Assembly: GCF_900129345.1 (NCBI RefSeq)
Contig: NZ_FQVK01000011.1
Coordinates: 1-64,000, forward strand
Length of the DNA stretch: 64,000 nucleotides
DNA from: Ruegeria intermedia
GTDB taxonomy: Bacteria; Pseudomonadota; Alphaproteobacteria; Rhodobacterales; Rhodobacteraceae
Direction of reading: 5' to 3'
Shown: in pieces, positions 33,384 through 50,260 of the stretch
How positions within the stretch are numbered: position 1 is the stretch's first letter
Layout of the letters: each line of letters starts with the position of its first letter
Notes under the pieces: generated by a model
The model's input: the letters and a program-made list of their open reading frames with translations, nothing else
Databases searched by the model: none
What the model was told of the DNA's origin: nothing
Translations under genes and position numbers: made by a program

Positions 33384-34106
33384 TTGGAGAAAGTGCAAAA
33401 CTTTGCATCAGAATTCAGTCGCGCAGCGCAGCTTGTCCTGACAGGAGACCCCGACCTGTGGGCGATCGTGGTCTTGTCTCTGCAGGTGTCGGTCTGTGCG
33501 GTGCTGATTTCGGCCGTGATCGGGATGCCGGTCGGGGCCGCTCTGGCCGTGGCGCGGTTTCCCGGGCGGCGGGCGCTGATCATTCTGATGAACGCGCTGA
33601 TGGGGTTTCCGCCCGTCGTCGTCGGTCTGCTGGTCTATCTGATGCTGTCACGGTCCGGCCCGCTCGGCGTGCTCGAGCTTTTGTACACGCCGACCGCGAT
33701 GATCATTGCCCAGACCGTGCTGGTCACGCCGATCATCGCGGCGCTGACGCGGCAGGTGGTGGAATTGCTGGCCGAGGAATATTCGGAACAGCTGCGGTCG
33801 CTGGGGGTGTCGCGGCTGGCGTCGGTTCCGACCCTGTTGTGGGACGCGCGGCTGGCGCTGGTCACCGCGCTGCTGGCCGGGTTCGGTCGAGCGATTGCCG
33901 AGGTCGGCGCGGTGATCATCGTGGGCGGCAACATCAATCACGTGACCCGTGTGATGACGACGACGATCGCGCTCGAGACCTCGAAGGGCAACCTGGCCCT
34001 GGCGCTGGCGCTTGGTGCGATCCTGATCGGGATTGCAGTGGCCGTGAATGCCATGGTCAGCGCCCTGACCCTGCGGGCCGAACAGGAAGGGCTGCGCCAT
34101 GCGTGA
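33384..34106 (+). CDS. tupB: tungstate ABC transporter permease TupB
   Basis: A 240-residue permease of the TupB/ModB group: PVVVGLLVYLMLSRSGPLG and LRSLGVSRLASVPTLLWDAR (EAA loop) with ALLAGFGRAIAEVGAVIIVG, all typical of tungstate permeases. The start is TTG at 33384 or GTG at 33393; GGAG lies between them and neither fits perfectly. It overlaps tupC by 8 bases and forms an uptake operon tupBCA. Confidence 0.85.
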   Translation: MEKVQNFASEFSRAAQLVLTGDPDLWAIVVLSLQVSVCAVLISAVIGMPVGAALAVARFPGRRALIILMNALMGFPPVVVGLLVYLMLSRSGPLGVLELLYTPTAMIIAQTVLVTPIIAALTRQVVELLAEEYSEQLRSLGVSRLASVPTLLWDARLALVTALLAGFGRAIAEVGAVIIVGGNINHVTRVMTTTIALETSKGNLALALALGAILIGIAVAVNAMVSALTLRAEQEGLRHA

Positions 34107-34833
34107 CCTGATGCCCGACATGCCGAACCGGCTGGAAATTTCGGGCCTTGCTATCGAACGCAAGGGGCGGGTCCTGCTGGATGTTCCCCGGCTGTCGCTG
34201 GACGGGCCCGGGCCGACGCTGATCCTGGGGCCGAACGGAGCGGGCAAAAGCCTGCTGTTGCGCTGTCTGCATGGGCTGATCCAGGCCGACAGGGGTCGGG
34301 TCCTGCAGGACGGTCTGGACCTGACCGCCGATCACAAGGCCCGGCAAGCCATGGTGTTCCAGCAGCCGGTTCTGCTGCGCCGATCGGTTGCGGCCAATCT
34401 GGATTTCGTTTTGAAACGCAAGCGGCTGGGCCGTTCTGCGCGCAAGGCGCGGATTGCCGACCTGCTGGCCGAAGGCGGGCTGGACGGCAAGGCCCGGCAA
34501 TCGGCGCGGTCTCTGTCGGGGGGCGAGGCGCAGCGTCTGGCCATCCTGCGCGCGCTGGCGCTGGACCCCGAGACGCTTTTTCTGGACGAGCCCACCAGCG
34601 CGCTAGACCCCAGCGCCACGCAGGCGATCGAGGCGATGATCCTGCGCGCGTCAGACCGTGGGGTGCGGATCGTGATGGTCACGCACGACGTCGGGCAGGC
34701 CCGGCGTCTGGCGGCGGACATCGTGATGATGCAAGGCGGGCGCGTCGTCGAACACGGCGCCGCCAGACAGGTGCTTGAGGCGCCGAAATGCCAGGCCTCG
34801 CGCCAGTATCTGGCGGGCTGGTTGGTCACTTAA
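34099..34833 (+). CDS. tupC: tungstate ABC transporter ATPase TupC
   Basis: A 244-residue ATPase: Walker A GPNGAGKSLLLRCL, signature SLSGGEAQRLAILRAL, Walker B LDPETLFLDEPTSALDP and switch His VMVTHDVGQARRLA. It lacks the MOP (molybdate-sensing) C-terminal domain of ModC, as expected for TupC. The start overlaps tupB by 8 bases, and tupA follows after 18 bases. Confidence 0.87.
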   Translation: MRDLMPDMPNRLEISGLAIERKGRVLLDVPRLSLDGPGPTLILGPNGAGKSLLLRCLHGLIQADRGRVLQDGLDLTADHKARQAMVFQQPVLLRRSVAANLDFVLKRKRLGRSARKARIADLLAEGGLDGKARQSARSLSGGEAQRLAILRALALDPETLFLDEPTSALDPSATQAIEAMILRASDRGVRIVMVTHDVGQARRLAADIVMMQGGRVVEHGAARQVLEAPKCQASRQYLAGWLVT

Positions 34834-34851: not shown

Positions 34852-35667
34852 ATGTTTCGCGCAGCCCTCACAAGCGCCCTGGTCCTGTTCGGACTTGTCG
34901 CCAACTTTGTGGCGGCCGACGAGCCGTTCATCATCGTGCAATCCACGACCTCGACGCAGAACTCGGGCCTTCTGGACTTCATCCTGCCGGGTTTCGAGGC
35001 CGAAACCGGAATCGAGGTGCGCGTGGTGGCCGTGGGAACGGGGCAGGCGATCCGCAATGCCAGGAACGGCGATGGCGACGTTCTGCTGGTGCATGCCAAA
35101 CCGGCCGAGGAGGCCTTCGTGGCCGAAGGCTGGGGAATCGAGCGCCGCGACGTGATGTACAACGATTTCGTCATCGTCGGCCCCGGATCCGACCCGGCGC
35201 ACATCAAGGGCATGACCGATGCCGCCGCTGCCCTGGTCGCCATCGCGAATGCCGGGGCGCCCTTCGCCTCGCGCGCGGATGACAGCGGCACCCATCAGGC
35301 CGAATTGCGCCTGTGGCAAAGCGCCGGCCTCGACCCGACCGCTGACTCGGGCACCTGGTACCGCGAGACCGGCTCGGGCATGGGCGCCACGCTGAACCTG
35401 GCGGCGGGGATGGGGGCCTATGCGCTGACCGACCGGGCAACATGGCTGGCTTTTGCCAACAAGGGCGACCTGGCGATTCTGGTCGAGGGGGATCCGCGTC
35501 TGTTCAACCAATACGGCGTGATCCTCGTGAACCCGGAAAAACATTCCGGCGTTCGTGCTGGCGCGGGCCAGAGGTTCATCGACTGGCTCACCGGACCGGA
35601 TGGTCAGGCGGCCATCGCGTCCTATCGGTTGGAGGGGCAGCAGCTGTTCTTTCCCAACGCCAGGTGA
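34852..35667 (+). CDS. tupA: tungstate-binding protein TupA
   Basis: A 271-residue periplasmic protein with signal peptide FRAALTSALVLFGLVANFV. The TupA hallmark TTSTQNSGLLDFILPGFE (32-49), GTGQAIRNARNGDGDVLLVH, and the closing RFIDWLTGPDGQAAIASY are intact. Members bind tungstate tightly and discriminate against molybdate to varying degree. Immediately convergent (7 bases) with the HTH/PBP regulator and next to formate dehydrogenase, a known tungsten or molybdenum enzyme. Confidence 0.9.
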   Translation: MFRAALTSALVLFGLVANFVAADEPFIIVQSTTSTQNSGLLDFILPGFEAETGIEVRVVAVGTGQAIRNARNGDGDVLLVHAKPAEEAFVAEGWGIERRDVMYNDFVIVGPGSDPAHIKGMTDAAAALVAIANAGAPFASRADDSGTHQAELRLWQSAGLDPTADSGTWYRETGSGMGATLNLAAGMGAYALTDRATWLAFANKGDLAILVEGDPRLFNQYGVILVNPEKHSGVRAGAGQRFIDWLTGPDGQAAIASYRLEGQQLFFPNAR

Positions 35668-35674
35668 CCGGCCC

Positions 35675-36547
35675 TCAGCCGCTGGCGCCGTTGTGGTGGA
35701 TCGCGCCCAGATCGGTCAGGTCATAGCCGCCCATCTCGGCCGCGCGGGCGGCAAACCCGTCCGAGCGCAGAAAGGACAGCAGCTTTTGCAAGGGCGGGTC
35801 GAAATACGCCCGACGCCAGATCGCCAGATCCAGGCGTTCGGAATGAGTCGGCACGAAGCCCAGCCCATAAAGGCGGGCCAGCGCCCCCAGCCCGAACCCG
35901 GCCTCTGCCTTGCCGTCGTGCAGGGCGATGGCCAGTTCTTCTTCGGTGCGGGCGCAATTGGGCAGGGTGTTAAGGTCGTCGCGGCTCAGGTCGTGTTCGG
36001 CCAGTTGCCGGTCGAACAGATGCTGGCTGGCGGCGCTGTCCTGTCGCAGTAGAACCCGGCGGCCCTTCAGGTCGGCAAACCCGCCGATGTCTTGCGTGCC
36101 GGGCGACAACAGCAGGCCGCGCTGGCGATGGGCGATCTGCACCAGAACCACGGGCGCTTCGCCCAGCGTGTCGCGCAGCGCGCCGGTGTTGAACCCGCCG
36201 GGTTCGTGAATATGCAGAACCGCGGCCTGCGCCGCGCGGTCGGCCAGCCGCCGCAGCCCGTCGAACGATCCGTCGTAATAGGTGGCCAGCCCCGAGCCGC
36301 TTTCGCGCAACGCCCAGTCCAGCAGCGGATCGTGGCTGCCGGCGACGATCGGGGGCAGGGGCGGCTCGGCCGTCTGCGGACCCGAGCGCGACGCATTCAG
36401 CCAAGCCAGCACCTCGGCCCGAGGAAACAGCAGCTTGCCCATGGCGCGCACGCAGGGCACCTCGCCCGATGCGGCCAGGTCATAGGCCTTGCGCTCGCCG
36501 ATGCGCAGCAGGTCGGCCAGCTCGCGCGTGGTCAGGAAGTCGGTCAT
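35675..36547 (-). CDS. HTH regulator with periplasmic-binding-like effector domain
   Basis: A 290-residue one-component regulator. An excisionase/MerR-type HTH occupies residues 1-55 (FLTTRELADLLRIGERKAYD, then FPRAEVLAWL). The rest is a PBP-like domain of the kind fused to HTH in molybdate/tungstate-linked regulators (GSHDPLLDWALRESG, FADLKGRRVLLRQDSAASQH, AELGFG-like KAEAGFGLGALARLYGLGFV). No signal peptide, so effector binding is cytoplasmic. Convergent with tupA and last gene downstream of the formate dehydrogenase operon, suggesting control of one or both by metal supply. Confidence 0.78.
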   Translation of the reverse strand: MTDFLTTRELADLLRIGERKAYDLAASGEVPCVRAMGKLLFPRAEVLAWLNASRSGPQTAEPPLPPIVAGSHDPLLDWALRESGSGLATYYDGSFDGLRRLADRAAQAAVLHIHEPGGFNTGALRDTLGEAPVVLVQIAHRQRGLLLSPGTQDIGGFADLKGRRVLLRQDSAASQHLFDRQLAEHDLSRDDLNTLPNCARTEEELAIALHDGKAEAGFGLGALARLYGLGFVPTHSERLDLAIWRRAYFDPPLQKLLSFLRSDGFAARAAEMGGYDLTDLGAIHHNGASG

Positions 36548-36680: not shown

Positions 36681-37943
36681 TTAGTCCGCGGGCGCCGTGG
36701 CGCTGCGCAGGAATTCGATCAGGTCGGCGCGGTCCTGCGCCTGCGTGATCCGCTGCATCGGCATCTTCGACCCCGGAATGTAGTGGTCCGGCCCTTGGTC
36801 GAAAAGAGCGTTTATCGTCTGTTCGTTCCAAACGATATCAGACCCTTGCAGCGTTTCCGAGTAGATGTAGCCGGGCAGTGTCCCGGCCTGACGCCCGAAT
36901 ACGCCATGCAGGGTCGGCCCGGCCCGGCGCTGATCGTCCGGCGTCAGGCTGTGGCAGATCGAGCATTTCCGGGCGAACTGGCGTTCTCCGTTTTGCATTT
37001 CGTCGGGGTCTTTCAGAAAACTCGGCTCTTGGCCGGCCATACGTTCCTGCGACCCCAAGGCGGCCACCGGCCAGCTGTACATGGCCTGATCCAGCCCGCC
37101 TGCGTGCAGGTTTTCACCATCGGGCGAAAAGGCCAGTGCCCAGACCGGGCCGCGCAGCGTTGCCCGGAAATCCTGCGCGATCCGCCAGTCCTGAGTGTCG
37201 ATGACCATGATGTAGCCCTCGCCATCGCCCACCGCCAGCAGCGACCGATCCGGGCTGAGGGCGAGCGCCAGGATCGGGCGGCGGTCCAGCGTGAAATCAC
37301 GCTCGGCCCCGGTGGTCAGGTCCAGAATGCGGGTCACGCCATCGACCGCGCCATAGGCGATCCAACCGTCTTGCGCGTTCAGGACCAGTTCGTTGATGCC
37401 GAAACCATGCTCGACCAGTCGCGCGGTTTCGGTGCCTGTGGTCACGTCCCAGATCCGCAAACTGCCGTCGACCCCGGCGGAATACAGCGTCCGCCCGTCC
37501 GGCGCGAAGGCCACCGCATTGACACCGCTGCCCGTGGGGCCCAGCAGCATGGCGGCCCCGCCCTCGGTGGGCCACAGGCCGATGGTCCCGTCCCAACTGG
37601 CAGTCGCAACGAGTTTCTTTGAGGCCGCGAGCCCGACGACCTTGCCCTTGTGCTGACCCACGACCTGACCACCGGGCCAACGGCGCAGGGTAAAGTCGTC
37701 GCCGGCCGAATAGATCGAGGTGCCGTTGAACACAACCGCGTTCACGGCAGCCTCGTGACCTTCCAGCCAGTCCGGCTGCTGCCCGGACCACAGGCCCACG
37801 GAATTGTCGAAACTGGCGGTGGCAATGCGCCCGTCCGGGGCGGCGGCGATGTCCATGATCGGTCCGCCATGGCCCTTGAGCGTGTAGAAATCCGCCGCCA
37901 GCGGCAGCGGCAGCAGGGCCAGCGCCAAAGCCAGCCCGCGCAT
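36681..37943 (-). CDS. periplasmic WD40-repeat protein fused to cytochrome c
   Basis: A 420-residue fusion. A signal peptide (RGLALALALLPLPLAA) is followed by about seven WD40-type blades (LKGHGGPIMDIAAAPDGRIA, GLWSGQQPDWLEGHEAAVNA, and others) and a class I cytochrome c domain from about 315, with haem motif CSICH (327-331), LHGVFGR and a Met ligand in PGSKMP (394). It adjoins fdhC with no gap and lies in the formate dehydrogenase operon. It could accept electrons from the membrane subunit or dock partners; both are inference. Confidence 0.83.
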   Translation of the reverse strand: MRGLALALALLPLPLAADFYTLKGHGGPIMDIAAAPDGRIATASFDNSVGLWSGQQPDWLEGHEAAVNAVVFNGTSIYSAGDDFTLRRWPGGQVVGQHKGKVVGLAASKKLVATASWDGTIGLWPTEGGAAMLLGPTGSGVNAVAFAPDGRTLYSAGVDGSLRIWDVTTGTETARLVEHGFGINELVLNAQDGWIAYGAVDGVTRILDLTTGAERDFTLDRRPILALALSPDRSLLAVGDGEGYIMVIDTQDWRIAQDFRATLRGPVWALAFSPDGENLHAGGLDQAMYSWPVAALGSQERMAGQEPSFLKDPDEMQNGERQFARKCSICHSLTPDDQRRAGPTLHGVFGRQAGTLPGYIYSETLQGSDIVWNEQTINALFDQGPDHYIPGSKMPMQRITQAQDRADLIEFLRSATAPAD

Positions 37944-39829: not shown

Positions 39830-42724
39830 TTACGCTGCCCAGATCTTGCAGAGAGTCGCTTTGGTCTCCTGCATCTGGGTCACTGAATCATAGCCATAGG
39901 TCTGGGCGGTGTTGGTGCTTTCACCCAGCACGTACGGGTCGGCGCCTTTCGGGTATTTCTCCCTCAGGTCCGCGCCCTGGAAATGGCCGCCAAAGTGGAA
40001 GGGCATGAAGGCCACGCCGGCACCGACCCTTTCGGTCAGCATCGCCATCACCTTGACCTTGCCACCCTCGGGACCTTCGACCCAGACCTGCGATCCGTCG
40101 CGAATGCCAAGGTTGTTGGCGTCACGCGGATTGATCTCGACGAACATGTCCTGCTGCAGCTCGGCCAGCCACGGGTTCGACCGTGTCTCGTCACCGCCAC
40201 CTTCATATTCGACCAGACGACCTGACGTCAGGATTATCGGGTAATCCTTTGAAAAGTCGTTCTTCTGGATCGAAGCATACAAGGTCGGAAGGCGATAGGC
40301 CTGGCGGTCCTCGTAGGTGGGATAGTCGGCCACCAGATCGCGCCGCGGCGTGTACAGTGGCTCGCGGTGCAGCGGGATCGGATCCGGGAAGGTCCAGACC
40401 ACGGTGCGGGCCTTGGCGTTTCCGAAGGGTGCACAGCCATGTTTGATGGCCACCCGCTGGATGCCGCCCGACAGGTCGGTCTTCCAGTTGGTCTTGGGCC
40501 CGGCCACGGCGTCGATGGCCGCGCGTTCCTCGGCCGTCAGGTCGCCATCCCAGCCCAGATCCATCAGCATCTGCATCGTGAACTCGGGGTATCCGTCCTG
40601 GATTTCCGAGCCGACGCTGTAGACCCCTTCGGCCAGCAGGTTCTGACCGTCACGCTCGACGCCGAAACGTGCACGGAAGGTCAGGCCACCCTCGGCCACC
40701 GGTTTGGACATGTCATAGAGGTTTGGCGTCCCCGGATGCCCCATCTCGGCGGTGCCCCAGCACGGCCACGGCAGACCGTAGTATTCGCCGTCATTCGGAC
40801 CGCCCACGGCCTGCAGCGTCGTTCTGTCGAACGTGTGCTGGTTGGCCATATGGCTCTTGATCCGCTCTGGCGACTGACCGGTATAGCCGATCGTCCACAG
40901 CCCCGCGTTGAACTCGCGCGTGATGCTCTCGACATTCGGGGTTTCGGGGTCCTCCATCTCGATATTGCGGAAGAACCGATCCGCCCAGCCGAACTTGTTG
41001 GCGAACTTGGCCATGATGACCTCGTCCGGCAGGCTTTCGAACAGCGGATCGACCACCTTGTCGCGCCACTGCAGCGAACGGTTCGACGCCGTGACCGAGC
41101 CACGGGTTTCGAACTGTGTACACGCCGGCAGCAGATAAACGCCATCAGTCCGGTCATGCAGCACGGCGGAAACGGTGGGATATGGGTCGATCACGACCAG
41201 CATGTCCAGCTTTTCCATCGCCGTCTTCATTTCGACCATCCGGGTCTGCGAGTTGGGCGCGTGGCCCCACAGAACCATGGCGCGGACGTTGTTGGGCTGA
41301 TCCATGTTCTCGGGATCTTCCAGCACACCGTCGATCCAGCGCGACACCGGAATGCCACGCTCGTTCATCAGCGGCTTGTCCTTGCCGTCCTTGTCCTTGA
41401 TCGTGTCGAACTGTCCTTTCAGCCAGTCCAGATCCTCGCCCCAGACCCGCGCCCAATGGCCCCAGGCCCCGGCCGACAGGCCGTAATAGCCGGGCAGGGT
41501 GTGGGACAGCACGCCAAGGTCGGTCGCGCCCTGCACGTTGTCATGGCCGCGGAAGATGTTCGTACCGCCGCCCGAGGTGCCCATGTTGCCCAGGGCAAGC
41601 TGCAGCACGCAATAGGCGCGCGTGTTGTTGTTGCCGTTGGTGTGCTGGGTGCCGCCCATGCACCAGATCACGGTGCCGGGACGGTTGTTGGCCAGCGTCC
41701 GTGCCACGCGTTTCAGCTGCGATCCCGGCACGCCGGTGACGCGCTCGGTCTCTTCGGGGGTCCAGTTGGCGACCTCTTCGCGGATCTGGTCCATGCCCCA
41801 GACACGGGTGCGGATGAACTCCTTGTCCTCCCAGCCGTTGTCGAAAATGTGCCACAGGATGCCCCAGATCAGCGCCACGTCGGTGCCGGGGCGGAAGCGG
41901 ACATATTCGTCGGCATGGGCCGCGGTGCGGGTGAACCGCGGGTCGCAGACGATCAGCGGGGCGTTGTTCTGCTCTTTCGCGCGCAGAACATGCAGCAGCG
42001 AGACGGGGTGCGCCTCGGCCGGGTTGCCGCCGATGATGAAGATCGCCTTGGAATTGTGGATGTCGTTGTAGCTGTTGGTCATGGCGCCGTAGCCCCATGT
42101 ATTCGCAACACCCGCAACGGTGGTCGAGTGGCAGATCCGCGCCTGGTGGTCCACGTTGTTGGTGCCCCAGTAGGCCGCGAACTTGCGGAACAGATAGGCC
42201 TGCTCGTTGTTGTGCTTGGCCGAGCCCAGCCAATAGACGCTGTCAGGCCCGCTTTCCTCGCGGATGCTCATCATGCCGTCGCCGATCTCGTCGATCGCCT
42301 GTTCCCAGCTGATGCGCTTCCACTCGCCACCCTCTTTCTTCATCGGGTATTTCAGGCGGCGTTCGCCATGGGCGTGTTCCCGGACCGAAGCCCCCTTGGC
42401 GCAATGGGCGCCCAGGTTGAACGGGCTGTCCCAACCGGGTTCCTGCCCGATCCACACGCCGTTCTGCACCTCGGCAACCACGGTACAGCCGACCGAGCAA
42501 TGCGTGCAGACGGATTTGATGTTCTCGACAGCCGTGTTGGCTGCGGTCTGGGCGCTGGCGGGCGACACGGTTCCACCCGTGGTGCTGATCGCGGCCAGGC
42601 CGCCGATCGTCAAGCCCGAGCCACGCAAGAACGCGCGGCGATCGACGCTTTTTTCGCCGATCCGGGACAGGATACTTGTCCGCTGGGGGCGTCTCGCAAC
42701 CCCGTTGGTCTTTTTCCTAAGCAT
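39830..42724 (-). CDS. fdhA: formate dehydrogenase alpha subunit, Tat-exported, Cys type
   Basis: A 964-residue bis-pterin (molybdenum or tungsten) catalytic subunit. Twin arginines at 29-30 in [12 protein letters not shown] give Tat export. The [4Fe-4S] motif is CTHCSVGC (73-80) with the fourth Cys at 108. The active-site metal ligand is Cys198 in [11 protein letters not shown], where E. coli FdnG has selenocysteine (ARVUHG); no in-frame TGA is used. Other pterin-binding motifs ([30 protein letters not shown]) are intact. GGAGGAAGG precedes the ATG. Tungstate uptake genes nearby suggest tungsten, not proven. Confidence 0.95.
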
Positions 42725-42853
42725 TTCCTTCCTCCCTTGCTGGCCATGTTGATAATGGCTGGCTTGGTGTTTCGAAATCGACGTCAGGGCCAATCGCAAC
42801 CGTCAGCCGAGTGTGACCACGTCCGGACCGATGCCGGGCGTCGCCGGGGCGCC

Positions 42854-43042
42854 CTAGAAGCGCGCGCTGTTGAAATAGGCGCGGGTATGCGCCGTGTCCT
42901 GAATGCGGGTCTCGTCCGAGGGTTGCTCGGCCGCTTCGGCCTCGGTTCCCAGGCTGGCCGCTGCAACGGCTGCCGGGGCCGCGGTGCCCGCCAGTTTCAG
43001 GAAGTCGCGGCGGCTGGCGCCGGTCTCCTTGGTCTTGCTCAT
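42854..43042 (-). CDS. formate dehydrogenase region Tat-leader protein
   Basis: A 62-residue protein with twin-arginine leader GASRRDFLKLAGTAAPAAVA and a short tail ending RAYFNSARF. It matches the small family of Tat targets found upstream of fdhA genes (TIGR02811 type). Its role is unknown; a chaperone decoy or a small structural partner has been proposed for such genes. AGGAGG sits before the ATG at 43042. About 130 bases without a gene separate it from fdhA. Confidence 0.83.
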   Translation of the reverse strand: MSKTKETGASRRDFLKLAGTAAPAAVAAASLGTEAEAAEQPSDETRIQDTAHTRAYFNSARF

Positions 43043-43103
43043 GGGATCCTCCTTTCCCATTTGCGGTTCAGCGCCCGTCGGGGCGCCAGCGAATGACGAC
43101 CGC

Positions 43104-44840: not shown

Positions 44841-45092
44841 TTTGATCCTCCCCGGAAAAGCTCTGCCCTGCTTTCCCTTAGGTTCACTATGGTACACAAA
44901 AGGGCCATGTGCCAAGCCCGCGGCGGCCTGAAATGGTCGTGATCTGGAAAAAAGTCGTCGCAAATGGGTCGCGGCGGCGATCAGCCGACTTTGGCGGGCG
45001 ACACAGAGTTTCTGACCAGAACCGGCCGCCACACGTTGCATGGGCGGCGTTTGGGTCTAAGGTTGGGGGCAAGGGAGAGATGCGGGGGGAAC

Positions 45093-47048
45093 ATGGTCAC
45101 CAAATTGGTCTTGTGCGATTGCGCCGGAAGTCTGGCCCTGGACGGGCAGGGGATATCGGCTGCCTGCGGTGCTGAATGCAGCAGGGTTCACACGGCGCTG
45201 TGCACCACCGAACTGACCGCTGCGGCCAAGCTGCTGCAGTCGGATGACCAGATCGTCATCGCCTGTGGGCAAGAGGCCCAAGTGTTCCGCGAACTGGCCG
45301 AGGAACTGGGCGTGGATCACCCCGGCTTTGTCGATCTACGCGACCGGGCCGGCTGGTCCGAGCAGGGGCGCGCGGCGATGCCCAAGATGGCGGCGCTGGC
45401 GGCCGAGGCATTGTTGCAGCAGCCGATCACGCCCAGCGTGGATGTCATCAGCGAAGGCACCGCCTGCATCATCGGGCCGGGGGAGGTTGCGTTTGAGCTG
45501 GCCCACCGGCTGTCGGACACGATGGCGGTGACAGTGGTCGTCACCGAAGATGCGCAGCCTGACAGCCGGGCCTTTGACGTGGTGCGCGCGCGGGTCCGGT
45601 CGGTCTCGGGGGCGCTGGGCGGGTTCACCCTGCGGCTGGATGCGTTGCAGCAGATTGATCCGGCGGGGCGCGGTGCGTTTGCCTGGACCCCGCCGCGCGA
45701 CGGTGCGGTGTCGGCCTGCGATGTGCTGATCGATCTGGCGGGGGGTACGCCCTTCGTGACGGCCCCGGACAAGCGCGAAGGCTACCTGCGCGCCGATCCG
45801 CGTGATGCGGTGGCGGTTGCCCGGTTGGCCTTTGACGCGGCGCAGCTGGTCGGGACCTTCGAAAAGCCGCTGTATGTCCGGCTCGAAGAAACCCTGTGCG
45901 CCCATTCGCGGGCCGGGCAGGTGGGCTGTTCCAACTGTCTGGACATCTGCCCCACCGGGGCCATCACCCCGGTCGGAGATCACGTGGCCATCGACCCGAT
46001 GGCCTGCGCGGGCTGCGGTGAATGCGCGGCCCTGTGCCCCTCGACCGCGATCAGCTACGAGGATCCGCCGGTGGCGGCCCTGCTGGCGCGGATGCAGACC
46101 CTGGCGGCGACCTTCCGTCGGGCCGGAGGGAGCGCCCCGCGCCTGTTGGTGCATGATGCCCACGGGGCCGAGATGATCCGGCTGGCCGCGCGGTTCGGAC
46201 GCGGGCTGCCTGCCGATGTGATCCCTCTGGAACAGGGGGTGGTGTCCGGCTTTGGACATGCCGAGATGCTGGCTGCCTTGGCTCATGGCTTTGCCCGAGT
46301 CGACATCCTGCTGGCCCCGACGACCGAGCGGGATGCGTTGGAGCGCGAACTGCCGCTGGCGCTGGCAATCGCCGGCGCGGACGTCGTCGGAGTGATCGAC
46401 GAATCCGATCCCGATGCGCTGGCCGATCTGCTCTTTGCGCAGGACGTGCCGCAGCCACTGGCCCAGCCGGTTCTGCCGCTGGGCAACCGGCGCCAGATTA
46501 CGCGGTTGGCGGCGCAGGCGCTGCGCCCCGATGCGTCTCAGCCGCTGCCTCTGTCGGAACACGCACCCTATGGCGCGGTGGTGGTGGACACCGAGGCCTG
46601 CACCCTGTGCCTGAGTTGCGTGTCGCTGTGCCCGTCAGGCGCATTGATCGACAACCCCGACATGCCACAGCTGAACTTTCAACAGGATGCCTGCCTGCAA
46701 TGCGGGCTGTGCAAGACCATCTGTCCCGAAAGCGCGATCACCCTGGTGCCCGAACTGGACCTGTCCGACCGTGCGCTGTCGCCGCGTGTTCTGAACGAAG
46801 AAGAGCCCTTTGCCTGCATTGAATGCGGTGCTCTGTTCGGGGTGAAATCGACGGTCGAGCGGATCATGGAGAAGCTGGCGGGCAGCCACCCGATGTTCGC
46901 CTCGTCCGAGCAGGCGAAGATGATCCAGATGTGTGACGATTGCCGTGTGCAGGCGCAGTTCCACAGCCAGTACAACCCATTTGCCTCAAAGCCTAAGCCC
47001 AAGGTGGTCACCACCGATGACTACTTCAGCAAGCGCAAGGATCACTGA
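45093..47048 (+). CDS. multi-cluster 4Fe-4S ferredoxin-type protein
   Basis: A 651-residue protein with four [4Fe-4S] motifs: CSNCLDICPTGAI and CAGCGECAALCPSTAI in the middle, CTLCLSCVSLCPSGAL and CLQCGLCKTICPESAI near the C-terminus, plus a terminal CIECGAL...CDDC pair. The N-terminal half contains CDCAGSL and an A/G-rich Rossmann-like stretch. This type sits beside DUF3305/DUF3306 and formate dehydrogenase genes and may supply electrons during maturation. GGGGGG precedes the ATG. Divergent from DUF3305 by 252 bases. Confidence 0.86.
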   Translation: MVTKLVLCDCAGSLALDGQGISAACGAECSRVHTALCTTELTAAAKLLQSDDQIVIACGQEAQVFRELAEELGVDHPGFVDLRDRAGWSEQGRAAMPKMAALAAEALLQQPITPSVDVISEGTACIIGPGEVAFELAHRLSDTMAVTVVVTEDAQPDSRAFDVVRARVRSVSGALGGFTLRLDALQQIDPAGRGAFAWTPPRDGAVSACDVLIDLAGGTPFVTAPDKREGYLRADPRDAVAVARLAFDAAQLVGTFEKPLYVRLEETLCAHSRAGQVGCSNCLDICPTGAITPVGDHVAIDPMACAGCGECAALCPSTAISYEDPPVAALLARMQTLAATFRRAGGSAPRLLVHDAHGAEMIRLAARFGRGLPADVIPLEQGVVSGFGHAEMLAALAHGFARVDILLAPTTERDALERELPLALAIAGADVVGVIDESDPDALADLLFAQDVPQPLAQPVLPLGNRRQITRLAAQALRPDASQPLPLSEHAPYGAVVVDTEACTLCLSCVSLCPSGALIDNPDMPQLNFQQDACLQCGLCKTICPESAITLVPELDLSDRALSPRVLNEEEPFACIECGALFGVKSTVERIMEKLAGSHPMFASSEQAKMIQMCDDCRVQAQFHSQYNPFASKPKPKVVTTDDYFSKRKDH

Positions 47049-47770
47049 AGCTTGAGCGGTGCCCCCAGATCAGCCGCGCGGATGACCGAGACATAGGCGA
47101 GGATCGCCTCAAGCTCGTCCTGCGTCAGCCTCAGCGGGTGAATGGGCGGGGGGCGTTCGGGGTCGAAGGGCGCAGTGATCCCTTCGATCTGGGTAAAGGA
47201 TGGGTGTGGGTTCAGGGCAAAGAATGCCTGGAACCGGTTCGACCAGTCCGGCATCGCGCGCAGCACCGCGAAGGACGGCGTCGAGCCCAACCCGTTCATC
47301 CGGTTCTGCGGCCCGATCACATGACAGCGCCCGCAATGGGTCAGCGACAGCTTTTCGCCCAGCACCGCATCGCCTTCGATGGCATCCGACTCGGGCGCAG
47401 CAACCGTTTCGAAACTGGCCGAGAACGGGTCGCCCTCGGCCGGTGCAAAGCTTTCGACGGTGCGCTTGCCCACGTCGGACAACAGCCAGTCTTGAAAGCG
47501 GGCCTGCCGCGGGTCGTCCTGAATGCGCAGGTGATAGATGTCGCCGCCGCGCTGAAACACCGGCTGTCCCGGTGGCCCGCCCGCCAGAACCATCGCGCCC
47601 GCATCATCCGCGACAACGCGGATTCCGGTCTTGAGCGAGAAGCGCGGAAGAATATGTTTCAAAAGACCCGAGCGTGCGACATCGTCCGGCGCGGCCAGAC
47701 CAATCTCCTCCTGCGACCAAGAGGGGCTGGCGAAGAGCGTCAGGCTCAGGCACAAAAGAACAAAGCGCAT
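47042..47770 (-). CDS. cytochrome c with contracted TupA-like N-terminal segment
   Basis: A 242-residue exported protein (leader RFVLLCLSLTLFASPSWSQ). Residues 34-52 (SGLLKHILPRFSLKTGIRV) match TupA residues 38-56 at 12 of 19 positions, and QARFQDWLLSDVGKRTVESF (89-108) resembles the TupA C-terminal end RFIDWLTGPDGQAAIASY. The TupA middle is missing. A class I cytochrome c follows: haem CGRCH (146-150) and a helical end EAILAYVSVIRA. Convergent overlap of 7 bases with the ferredoxin gene. Function unknown. Confidence 0.78.
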   Translation of the reverse strand: MRFVLLCLSLTLFASPSWSQEEIGLAAPDDVARSGLLKHILPRFSLKTGIRVVADDAGAMVLAGGPPGQPVFQRGGDIYHLRIQDDPRQARFQDWLLSDVGKRTVESFAPAEGDPFSASFETVAAPESDAIEGDAVLGEKLSLTHCGRCHVIGPQNRMNGLGSTPSFAVLRAMPDWSNRFQAFFALNPHPSFTQIEGITAPFDPERPPPIHPLRLTQDELEAILAYVSVIRAADLGAPLKLQ

Positions 47771-47833: not shown

Positions 47834-48031
47834 ATGAGCGGCGATTACAACATGTCGATGCGCAAATTCCTCAAACAGGTTGGCGTGACCAGCCAGCAGG
47901 CCATCGAAGACGCGCTGCGCAAGGCGGGCGATCCGACGGGCAAAAGCTTTGAGGCCAAGATGGTCCTGACGATCGACGGTCTGGATGTCGAACACGTGGT
48001 GACCGGCCAGATCAAGGATGGCGACGCATGA
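47834..48031 (+). CDS. DUF6494 small protein
   Basis: A 65-residue protein (MRKFLKQVGVTSQQAIEDAL, then MVLTIDGLDVEHVVTGQI). It matches the DUF6494 pattern; no function is known. It is first in a tight operon with mrp, its TGA overlapping the mrp start. GGAG lies before the ATG. Confidence 0.75.
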   Translation: MSGDYNMSMRKFLKQVGVTSQQAIEDALRKAGDPTGKSFEAKMVLTIDGLDVEHVVTGQIKDGDA

Positions 48032-49089
48032 GCATCCGCGACGCGGTTCTGGCGAACCTGAAGAAGATCACCGACCCGGTTTCGGGGCAGGACATCGTCA
48101 GCGCGGGCGTGGTCCGCGCGCTGAATGTCGAGGGCGACACCGTGCGCTTCGTTCTCGAGATCGACCCCAGGAATGCCGACAAGATGGAGCCGGTGCGCGC
48201 CACTGCCGAAAAGGCGGCGCAGATGGTCGACGGGGTGGCTAAGGTCTCGGCCCTGCTGACAGCGCATTCCGACAAGGCGCCGCCGGATTTAAAACCCAAG
48301 CCCAAGCCCTCGCAGACCGGGCCGCAGGCGGTGCCGGGGGTCGACCGGATCATCGCCGTGGCCTCGGGCAAGGGCGGGGTCGGAAAGTCGACCGTTTCGG
48401 CCAACTTGGCCTGTGCGCTCGCGGCCGAGGGGCGACGGGTCGGCCTTCTGGATGCCGATGTGTACGGCCCATCGCAGCCGCGCATGCTGGGCGTGTCCGG
48501 TCGACCCGCCAGCCCCGATGGCAAAACCATCCTGCCGCTGCGCAATCACGGCGTCACCATGATGTCGATGGGGTTGATGACCAACGAAGGTCAAGCGGTG
48601 GTCTGGCGTGGGCCTATGCTGATGGGCGCGCTGCAGCAGATGATGAACCAGGTGCAGTGGGGCGCGCTGGACGTGTTGATCGTCGACCTGCCGCCCGGCA
48701 CCGGTGACGTGCAACTGACGCTGAGCCAGAAGTTCAAGGTGGATGGGGCCATCGTAGTCTCGACCCCGCAGGACGTGGCCCTGATTGACGCGCGCAAGGG
48801 CATCGACATGTTCCGCCAGTTGAAAACGCCGATCGTCGGCATGATCGAGAACATGTCCACGCATATCTGCTCGAACTGCGGGCACGAGGAACATGTGTTC
48901 GGTCATGGAGGCGTCGCCGCCGAAGCTGCCGAACTGGGTGTGCCGTTGCTGGGAGAAATCCCGCTGCATCTGGATATCCGCGTGGCCGCCGATGGCGGGG
49001 CGCCGATCGTGGTCAGCAAACCCGACAGCCCGCAGGCCGAGGCCTTCCGCAAGATCGCCCGCGATCTGATCGCCGCGGGCAAGGCATGA
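48028..49089 (+). CDS. mrp: Mrp/ApbC iron-sulfur cluster carrier
   Basis: A 353-residue P-loop ATPase. N-terminal MIP18/DUF59 domain (about 1-85), a linker, then deviant Walker A ASGKGGVGKSTVSANLA, DLPPGTGDVQLTLSQ and the cluster-binding CSNCGH (CxxC) near residue 280. It carries [4Fe-4S] clusters to apo-proteins. Overlaps both neighbours by 4 bases (ATGA). Its location in the formate dehydrogenase region suggests that FdhA/FdhB or the ferredoxin are clients; this is inference. Confidence 0.92.
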   Translation: MSIRDAVLANLKKITDPVSGQDIVSAGVVRALNVEGDTVRFVLEIDPRNADKMEPVRATAEKAAQMVDGVAKVSALLTAHSDKAPPDLKPKPKPSQTGPQAVPGVDRIIAVASGKGGVGKSTVSANLACALAAEGRRVGLLDADVYGPSQPRMLGVSGRPASPDGKTILPLRNHGVTMMSMGLMTNEGQAVVWRGPMLMGALQQMMNQVQWGALDVLIVDLPPGTGDVQLTLSQKFKVDGAIVVSTPQDVALIDARKGIDMFRQLKTPIVGMIENMSTHICSNCGHEEHVFGHGGVAAEAAELGVPLLGEIPLHLDIRVAADGGAPIVVSKPDSPQAEAFRKIARDLIAAGKA

Positions 49090-49784
49090 CGCAGCCGGTC
49101 TTTCCCCCGTTGCTGTCCGGGCACCCGGTGCAGGGTGGGGAAGACCCGTTCGACCATGCGCAGGCCATGGCGGCGCTGGGCTGCGATGCGGGCAGCGTCG
49201 TCTACAACATCCAGGCGGATCGCCTGCGCGCGGCCATCGTCTTTGCGCCCGAGGTGCCACTGCAGGACGCCATGACCATGCTGCCGCTGTGCACCGTCGG
49301 GTTCCAGAACGCGCTGGGCGCGCTGGCTCCGCCCGAGGTGGCGGTGCATCTGGGCTGGGATGGTCCGATTTTCGTCAACGGGGCCCGGTGCGGCCGGTTT
49401 CGTGTGGCCGCGTCGACCTCGGATCCGGAAACCGAGCCCGACTGGCTGGTCGTCGGCTGGGAACTGGCCTTGCTGCAAACCGGGGACGAGCCCGGCAAGT
49501 CGCCCGATGTGACGGCCCTGTATGACGAAGGCTGCGCGGACGTGTCCCCGGTGCAGCTGGTCGAAAGCTGGTCGCGCCACATGCTGACCTGGCTGAACCG
49601 CTGGTCCGAGGATGGCAACGCACCCCTGCACGGGGAATGGATGGGCTTGCTGCAGGGGGTGGGAGAGCCCTATGGTGATCGCGGCGTGTTTCTCGGGGCC
49701 GATGAGCGGTTCGGCATGCTGTTGCGGAACGGGGCGGACACGCAGATCGTTCCCTTGACCCATCTGCTGGAGGACGCCCATTGA
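49086..49784 (+). CDS. biotin/lipoate ligase-like protein with DUF4444
   Basis: A 232-residue protein with a lipoate/biotin ligase-like fold: AALGCDAGSVVYNIQADRLR, LGWDGPIFVNGARCGRFRVA and WLVVGWELALL. The C-terminal GEWMGLLQGVGEPYGDRGVF fits the DUF4444 tail. The usual GRGR biotin-AMP loop is not seen, so ligase activity is doubtful. Overlaps mrp and the next gene by 4 bases each. Confidence 0.75.
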   Translation: MTQPVFPPLLSGHPVQGGEDPFDHAQAMAALGCDAGSVVYNIQADRLRAAIVFAPEVPLQDAMTMLPLCTVGFQNALGALAPPEVAVHLGWDGPIFVNGARCGRFRVAASTSDPETEPDWLVVGWELALLQTGDEPGKSPDVTALYDEGCADVSPVQLVESWSRHMLTWLNRWSEDGNAPLHGEWMGLLQGVGEPYGDRGVFLGADERFGMLLRNGADTQIVPLTHLLEDAH

Positions 49785-50260
49785 ACCTGGCCCGCGCCAT
49801 CCATTTCGACGAAAGCGACCTGAACGTCTTCCACTCTCCAGCCCGAACGGGCGAGTGGTGCATCTCGGGCGGGTTCGAGTTTTCGAACTGGGGCGAGGCC
49901 GACCTGGCCGGCAAGGCGCGCCAGGCCTTTGCCAATGGGTGGCTGGGGCTTGAAACCTTCGGGCGCGTGACCTTCGTGGCGGTGACGCAGATCGAACCGG
50001 CCGAGATGGAGCGGCTGGCCACTAACCTGGCCGAGCATTTCGTGCGCCTTTACGGCGCGCCCTCGGTCGAGGTGGCGCTGGACGTGGCCCGGGCCGAGCT
50101 GGCCCATATGTCCGAGATGTGCGACGATCATCCCCCCAACACCCTGCTGACCGTCGCCCGCAGCCTGACCGAGTCCGGCGTTCACGAGGCTTTTCGCGTG
50201 ATCACGCCGCAAGAGGCCGAGTTGGAGGCCTTTGCCGTCCACGGGTCATTGGACGAGTGA
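49781..50260 (+). CDS. DUF6505 protein
   Basis: A 159-residue soluble protein (NLARAIHFDESDLNVFHSPA, ANGWLGLETFGRVTFVAVTQ). Matches the alphaproteobacterial DUF6505 pattern; no catalytic motif. It starts with TTG at 49781 overlapping the previous stop, with GGAGG seven bases upstream. End of the four-gene operon. Confidence 0.75.
   Translation: MNLARAIHFDESDLNVFHSPARTGEWCISGGFEFSNWGEADLAGKARQAFANGWLGLETFGRVTFVAVTQIEPAEMERLATNLAEHFVRLYGAPSVEVALDVARAELAHMSEMCDDHPPNTLLTVARSLTESGVHEAFRVITPQEAELEAFAVHGSLDE

Follow-up and report, generated by a model that had tools for sequence, protein, structure and literature searches.

Why should a cytochrome gene close to a formate dehydrogenase (FDH) begin with pieces of TupA, the binding protein of the TupABC tungstate uptake system? 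The question is raised by a stretch of 64,000 nucleotides from Ruegeria intermedia (hereafter the window), in which the gene at 47042..47770 on the minus strand encodes an exported two-domain c-type cytochrome of 242 amino acids plus stop. An earlier note on this DNA had described the product as a cytochrome c carrying a contracted TupA-like tungstate-binding segment; its coordinates, strand and frame were correct, as was its CGRCH motif (residues 146-150), and its core idea, that a contracted TupA piece sits on a cytochrome c in the vicinity of FDH and tup genes, held up. We regard it as very nearly certain that the product is a periplasmic monoheme cytochrome c with a fused TupA lobe A. This confidence covers the structural half of our explanation; the whole statement, in which the fused cytochrome uses a repurposed single lobe as a docking domain of FDH3, is one that we lean towards with far less assurance (the FDH3 type of the fdhA gene is taken from the name of the adjoining beta subunit in two plasmid records).

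Homologues of the window protein numbered 1823 at E<=1e-3, the best 120 of which span 237-278 aa, and 370 stretches of this protein family were confirmed in named genomes, 80 of them being retained for analysis. Ruegeria pomeroyi carries the gene too (strain SZCCDBG043, locus L199). Together, the 1823 homologues and 370 stretches rule out a sequencing or assembly artefact. The homologues go by the database names hypothetical protein, c-type cytochrome, cytochrome c and cytochrome c domain-containing.

A lobe of TupA fused to a cytochrome c

Substrate-binding proteins are usually pictured as two-lobed clamps in which the chain crosses between the lobes. For TupA, the available text of PMC5517513 assigns residues 2-76 plus 201-251 to lobe A and residues 91-200 to lobe B. 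In the window protein, a signal peptide at about residues 1-20 (47711..47770; a helix at 2-12 in the model) was recognised by eye, in agreement with the export claimed earlier. It is followed by the TupA lobe-A domain, residues 21-122 (47405..47710, the N-domain below), a linker of low model confidence and weak constraint, residues 123-132 (47375..47404), and the monoheme cytochrome c domain, residues 133-242 (47045..47374), all on the minus strand. Within the N-domain, residues 22-58 (47597..47707) are homologous to the first segment of mature TupA, with A27-P28-D29-D30 in place of its TTTS motif, and residues 88-120 (47411..47509) to the C-terminal end of TupA (F.DWL.S..G..I..F...G..LF).

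The relationship was significant by profile comparison as well as by a search of the sequences of solved structures. When a profile of 39 diverse family members was aligned by hhalign to a profile of 40 TupA proteins, two separate, collinear matches were obtained, joining family positions 30-58 to TupA columns 11-39 and 88-120 to columns 215-247 of 248; these sit at the two ends of mature TupA, in its first and its C-terminal segment. Tested singly, the first segment scored 50.4 (P 3.1e-9) and the last 61.4 (P 3.7e-11), with P given per single comparison, and the maxima from 150 column shuffles per segment were 20.4 and 19.8, respectively, below half of the real scores. Among the other controls, the cytochrome domain scored 16.7 and reversed TupA 11.9. 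The family profile, run against solved-structure sequences, matched 3muq (E 7e-4), 3cvg (1e-3), 3lr1 (9e-3), 5my5 (0.01) and 3kn3 (0.5). The remaining rows at E<=1 were cytochromes or cytochrome complexes, save for a plant RNase P (0.1) and two IsdG rows (0.7). Both 3muq and 3kn3 are argued to be TupA in the part of PMC5517513 available, and 3cvg is probably a TupA-type chain too.

Genome searches led to the same relative. With the plain protein as query, searches of the order (292 genomes) and the class (289 genomes) gave 5 and 11 rows, respectively, that cover the front part and fall outside the family, and all 16 lay in tupA. Without prompting, the family profile picked out the two ends of the tupA gene in the window itself (34876-35067 and 35560-35667), and among 398 genomes of the phylum it placed first- and last-segment matches in order within one open reading frame in 34 genomes by hand count, the window's own among them; all 12 of those checked were tupA. 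The column shuffles and this unprompted recovery of tupA exclude a chance match or artefact. In Pfam and NCBIfam, nothing matched the N-domain of the window protein (E<=10), NCBIfam gave no match for the protein as a whole, and the 39 family members showed only isolated weak matches to solute-binding models, the best being 2.4e-4 in one member.

The motif matches underlying the earlier note survived a recount, with 12 of 19 residues identical to the window's TupA at positions 34-52 and the RF.DWL....G match located at residues 91-101; the core motif positions shared with TupA are G35, L41, P42, F44, W95, L96 and G101. Its figure of roughly 185 absent residues needs correcting to a net contraction of about 146, the span between the motifs being 184 residues in TupA versus 38 here, and these 38 contain strands. 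As for the fold, the N-domain model resembles a periplasmic-binding lobe, structural alignment superposing 101 residues (20-120) of the predicted model on TupA. The protein is thus a fusion of a TupA-derived lobe A to a cytochrome c.

The description of the remainder as a class I cytochrome c was only partly supported. CxxCH is present in all 124 cytochrome domains compared (CGRCH, C146-G-R-C-H150, at 47321..47335 in the window protein), but a conserved distal Met is absent: no Met is invariant among the 124, Met158 occurring in 82. The only invariant histidines are His150 and His189, the latter in a PHP motif at 47204..47206 and the predicted distal haem ligand, and bis-His ligation is therefore predicted as probable. 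Pfam PF00034 scored 19.5 bits against the window protein, under its curated cut-off of 21.3, and matched 36 of the 39 family members at E<=1 (best 1.3e-5). Modelled in isolation, the cytochrome domain had modest confidence, and its structural matches were weak, all of them to cytochromes or cytochrome complexes. In the predicted structure of the whole protein, pTM was 0.53 though the individual domains were confident, and pLDDT fell below 50 at residues 125-128; we read the linker from this as a flexible tether, by which the N-domain and the cytochrome appear, in the model, to be loosely connected.

Loss of the tungstate site and selection on the lobe

The residues with which TupA holds tungstate are gone. 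TTS[TV] is found in 40 of 40 TupA proteins, whereas none of the 115 family members compared has a TTTS-like motif. The profile matches stop at TupA column 39 and restart at about 214-215, so that lobe B is deleted, and the lobe-B tungstate contacts given in the accessible text of PMC5517513 (Arg118, Thr124 and Asp170) fall inside the gap. Having lost both TTTS and the lobe-B contacts, the segment no longer merits the term tungstate-binding as a statement of function. The family has gained near-invariant residues of its own: Arg43 (115 of 115), Lys47 (114 of 115) and Ser98 (114 of 115) are variable in TupA, where the equivalent of Ser98 is Gly or Ser. Positions 38, 47 and 51 are mostly acidic in TupA and mostly Lys or Arg in the family.

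We compared selection across the protein in 136 pairs among 17 close relatives, of which 129 were usable for the N-domain, 82 for the linker and 109 for the cytochrome. Median dN/dS was 0.158, 0.685 and 0.055, respectively, with the caveat that synonymous sites were close to saturation. On these substitution rates, the N-domain is under purifying selection, weaker than that on the haem part, and since its ratio is far below that of the linker it does not behave as neutral debris. Of the functions offered by the earlier note, the vestigial one is accordingly disfavoured by this selection, and the metal-responsive one by the loss of the tungstate site. A domain that is kept under selection after losing its ligand site has probably taken up a new job, such as docking.

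Linkage to formate dehydrogenase and origin of the fusion

The cytochrome gene is linked near-strictly to fdhA. In a sample of 292 genomes of the order, with fdhA called at E<=1e-100 and tupA at E<=1e-20, the family was present in 92 (95 at the cut-off minus 3 matching tupA alone), as a two-domain protein in 90, one of them broken, and as the cytochrome alone in 2. fdhA was found in 147 genomes, 11 to 13 of which hold a version only about 61% identical and never the cytochrome gene, and tupA in 194. The survey proposed by the earlier note, on whether the gene always co-occurs with fdhA and tup, agrees with its idea when counted from the gene, with fdhA in 91 of the 92 family genomes and tupA in 92; counted the other way, the gene tracks FDH and not tup, and 56 of the 147 fdhA genomes lack it. 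Among the 48 genomes with tupA and no fdhA, the cytochrome gene occurs only in genome G204 and is broken there. Fisher values for these co-occurrences overstate their significance because the genomes are related. The G204 copy (L128:9500-10291) has an internal stop and loses similarity near a contig end; G204 is the only family genome without a detected fdhA, an absence that could partly reflect assembly given the contig end.

Gene order tells the same story. In a set of 40 loci chosen to be diverse, the two-domain protein is encoded by 37, of which 35 also include fdhA within 20 kb and two have it elsewhere in the genome; tupA lies within the same 20 kb in 16 of the 40 loci. fdhA was present in 77 of the 80 named loci. 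In all 11 fetched fdhA clusters that lack the cytochrome gene, the gap between the 4Fe-4S and Mrp genes is 110-393 bases, which leaves no room for it. Five copies lie on plasmids across three genera; three of these records were opened, two of which have an annotated fdhA, and the third is truncated where its record begins, beside the FDH accessory genes DUF3305, DUF3306 and twin-arginine. Outside the window's taxonomic family, a two-domain copy was found once in the 289 genomes of the class sample (G576), and in the phylum sample of 398 genomes the two-domain protein occurred in at least 7, all of that taxonomic family. No fusion of the N-domain to another partner was recognised among the rows examined from the 398 phylum genomes, where 6 candidates per genome were scored.

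Cytochromes with similar motifs and no TupA part occur in FDH clusters of other alphaproteobacterial families (loci L222, L223, L226 and L074). L222 has the order tupB, tupC, tupA, regulator, cytochrome, WD40 cytochrome, fdhC, fdhA, and in L270:9765-12443 (genome G614) a bare cytochrome is the first gene of an apparent same-direction cytochrome-tupB-tupC-tupA run, in a stretch with DUF3305, DUF3306 and 4Fe-4S genes and no fdhA. Four further bare cytochromes (L224, L225, L227 and L271) have no recognised FDH gene within the fetched stretch. The bare forms in FDH and tup clusters elsewhere suggest that the fusion came later, and arrangements such as those of L222 and L270 that the cytochrome and tup genes probably already stood close together when it happened. 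A tree of the cytochrome domain (65 rows, 111 columns, poorly resolved) needs two changes between fused and unfused forms, and constraining the sampled fused forms to a single clade was not rejected by the approximately unbiased test (p-AU 0.135; L226 and L227 omitted for their long branches, fused rows thinned to 30). The simplest account is a single fusion followed by one or two losses, and L074 might predate the fusion.

TupA proteins of the Rhodobacterales are of two types, canonical, to which the window's belongs, and divergent, which is 48-55% identical to the canonical type; a divergent tupBCA set lies near the cytochrome and Mrp-type ATPase genes in L056, L059, L062, L083 and other loci. 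The N-domain profile scored 37-52 bits against 43 canonical and 13-28 bits against 21 divergent TupA proteins. A recent fusion from an adjoining tupA is unsupported by this preference, though the divergent type may evolve faster, and by sequence likeness the donor looks like a canonical TupA. A search of 18 genomes with the same profile revealed no stand-alone lobe-A protein in those with a bare cytochrome: besides the window's gene, 19 rows were returned, all at loci with tupA, and 7 of these genomes yielded no row at E<=0.1. Nor were intermediates retaining lobe B seen among the best listed proteins (3 x 120, 214-318 aa; candidates up to 1.75x query length).

In the window itself, tupA (34852..35667, plus strand; PF12849), the full-length two-lobe homologue of the N-domain, lies 11 kb from the cytochrome gene and is preceded by tupB and tupC (33384..34833, plus), named by position and by eye, their relatives being located beside tupA. 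fdhA, for the molybdopterin FDH alpha subunit, lies 4 kb away (39830..42799, minus). Its product bears the sequence RRAFLRG, which we take to be a twin-arginine signal, so that FdhA and the cytochrome protein probably share the periplasm. The cytochrome gene converges on a 4Fe-4S protein gene (44964..47048, plus) with a 7-base end overlap, and diverges from a gene for a small DUF6494 protein (47834..48031, plus), named after the gene in the same place in plasmid records and also beside the cytochrome gene in several checked loci. Next comes an Mrp/NBP35-type ATPase (48028..49089, plus), a close neighbour in 38 of 40 loci; as a set, the Mrp-type ATPase, biotin/lipoate ligase-like and DUF6505 genes (window 47834-50260, plus) escort the cytochrome gene in 38 of 40 loci. 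To our knowledge, neither these three nor DUF6494 has a known role in FDH. The cluster also includes the maturation factors TorD-like, DUF3305 and DUF3306. For fdh operons of this kind, PMC4464133 describes the TorD, DUF3305, DUF3306 and fer4 genes; the term 'cytochrome c' is absent from its main text.

Several other features of the window were noted. A WD40 propeller-cytochrome c fusion (36681-37943, minus) immediately follows the gamma-subunit gene of the fdh operon, and other families also have it in their FDH clusters (L222, L226). Beside tupA, a probable regulator (35675-36547, minus) combines HTH_17 with a PF12727 PBP_like domain, a second reuse of the binding-protein fold in the island. 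A 909-aa open frame antisense to fdhA (40367-43096, plus) is probably a by-product of high GC content. An Rfam scan of the window gave no match at gathering scores.

Possible functions and comparison with known systems

In the explanation that we prefer, a tupA copy would have fused to the periplasmic monoheme cytochrome c of an FDH3 locus, after which the TupA part would have lost lobe B and the tungstate site, lobe A being kept as one compact domain, about 100 residues long, that is tethered by a flexible linker. This lobe would act in a protein-protein role, docking the cytochrome to some periplasmic component of the FDH3 system and so letting the haem take or deliver electrons; candidate partners are Tat-exported FdhA, its membrane and WD40-cytochrome c partners, or assembly intermediates. 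The docking function, the choice of FDH3 as electron partner and the order of events are what we infer from the features above. A role for the lobe in assembly rather than electron flow, in which it might hold FDH3 in the periplasm, or the cytochrome while its haem is being attached, is improbable but has points in its favour, as the gene has an iron-sulfur protein gene on one side and an Mrp-type ATPase gene on the other, its cluster includes TorD-like, DUF3305 and DUF3306 factors, and the binding-protein-like XoxJ, beside a dehydrogenase and a cytochrome c, is suggested in the available part of PMC7391723 to be an enzyme activator. Against it, the haem domain is more conserved than the N-domain, which points to electron transfer. 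Just as improbable is a one-lobe adaptor that still recognises TupB or TupA, whereby the cytochrome would couple the redox state of FDH3, as a tungsten enzyme, to tungstate uptake or delivery. The presence of tupA in every family genome and within 20 kb in 16 of 40 loci would suit such an adaptor, as would the cytochrome-only relatives of G614, directly upstream of and codirectional with tupBCA, and of G397, one gene away from tupA. Yet the gene tracks fdhA and not tupA, occurring in 1 of the 48 tupA-only genomes as a broken copy, and the change from acidic residues to Lys or Arg at positions 38, 47 and 51 argues against an unchanged docking face.

Somewhat likelier than either, and still unlikely, is that the N-domain is a functionless vestige, a shrunken tupA copy perhaps serving as a spacer behind the signal peptide. 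Its dN/dS is about 3x that of the cytochrome, and three genomes encode a close cytochrome that lacks it; but that ratio is far under the linker's, near-invariant residues foreign to TupA have arisen (Arg43, Lys47, Ser98), the model folds the domain with confidence, and it is present in 90 of 92 family genomes (one broken). We give least credence to a metal- or oxyanion-responsive carrier, in which the lobe would bind tungstate, molybdate or formate and gate the haem. The fold is that of an oxyanion-binding lobe and the setting that of a molybdenum or tungsten enzyme, but TTTS is missing from all 115 members, Arg118, Thr124 and Asp170 belonged to the deleted part, a single lobe forms no inter-lobe cleft, and the model joins the two domains loosely. 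A tethered haem domain next to a lobe without a ligand site fits docking or assembly better than a sensor, and docking to the FDH3 system is the reading that we retain.

The locus has thus carried out a natural experiment in which a discontinuous domain was made continuous: one lobe was excised in nature, and the other, on its own, forms a domain of a haem protein and is both conserved and modelled with confidence. Such excision of one lobe is, as far as we know, unusual. The result suggests that FDH3 has an accessory protein in marine roseobacters, and if the docking is true, part of a metal-uptake system was recruited to serve an enzyme using that metal. No description of a TupA-cytochrome fusion was recognised in the literature, judged largely by titles and abstracts, with subscription papers mostly outside the scope. 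Cytochrome cbb3-type domain fusions to molybdoenzymes are described in PMC6147048, the accessible part of which names no TupA fusion, and tupBCA lies beside molybdenum-cofactor genes in Methylorubrum according to PMC13197769, without mention of 'cytochrome' in the part available.

Four known systems offer the closest comparisons. TupA itself (TupABC; PF12849 PBP_like_2; 5my5, 3lr1, 3muq) is homologous at both ends and has the lobe-A fold in common, whereas the window protein is without lobe B, the cleft, TTTS and Arg118/Thr124/Asp170, is fused to a cytochrome c, and has a gene that follows fdhA rather than tup. The bare cytochromes (L222, L223, L226, L074, L270) share the CxxCH, G(I)GSTPSF-like and PHP-like motifs and the genomic setting, but have no TupA lobe. 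The WD40-cytochrome c of the same cluster (window 36681-37943) likewise joins a cytochrome c to an added non-haem domain; in its case the addition is a beta-propeller and the cytochrome passes the Pfam cut-off (39.3 bits). By functional analogy, XoxJ/MxaJ with XoxG/MxaG, as presented in the accessible text of PMC7391723, likewise set a binding-protein-type partner of a periplasmic dehydrogenase beside a c-type cytochrome, although there the two are separate proteins and the enzyme is a PQQ enzyme.

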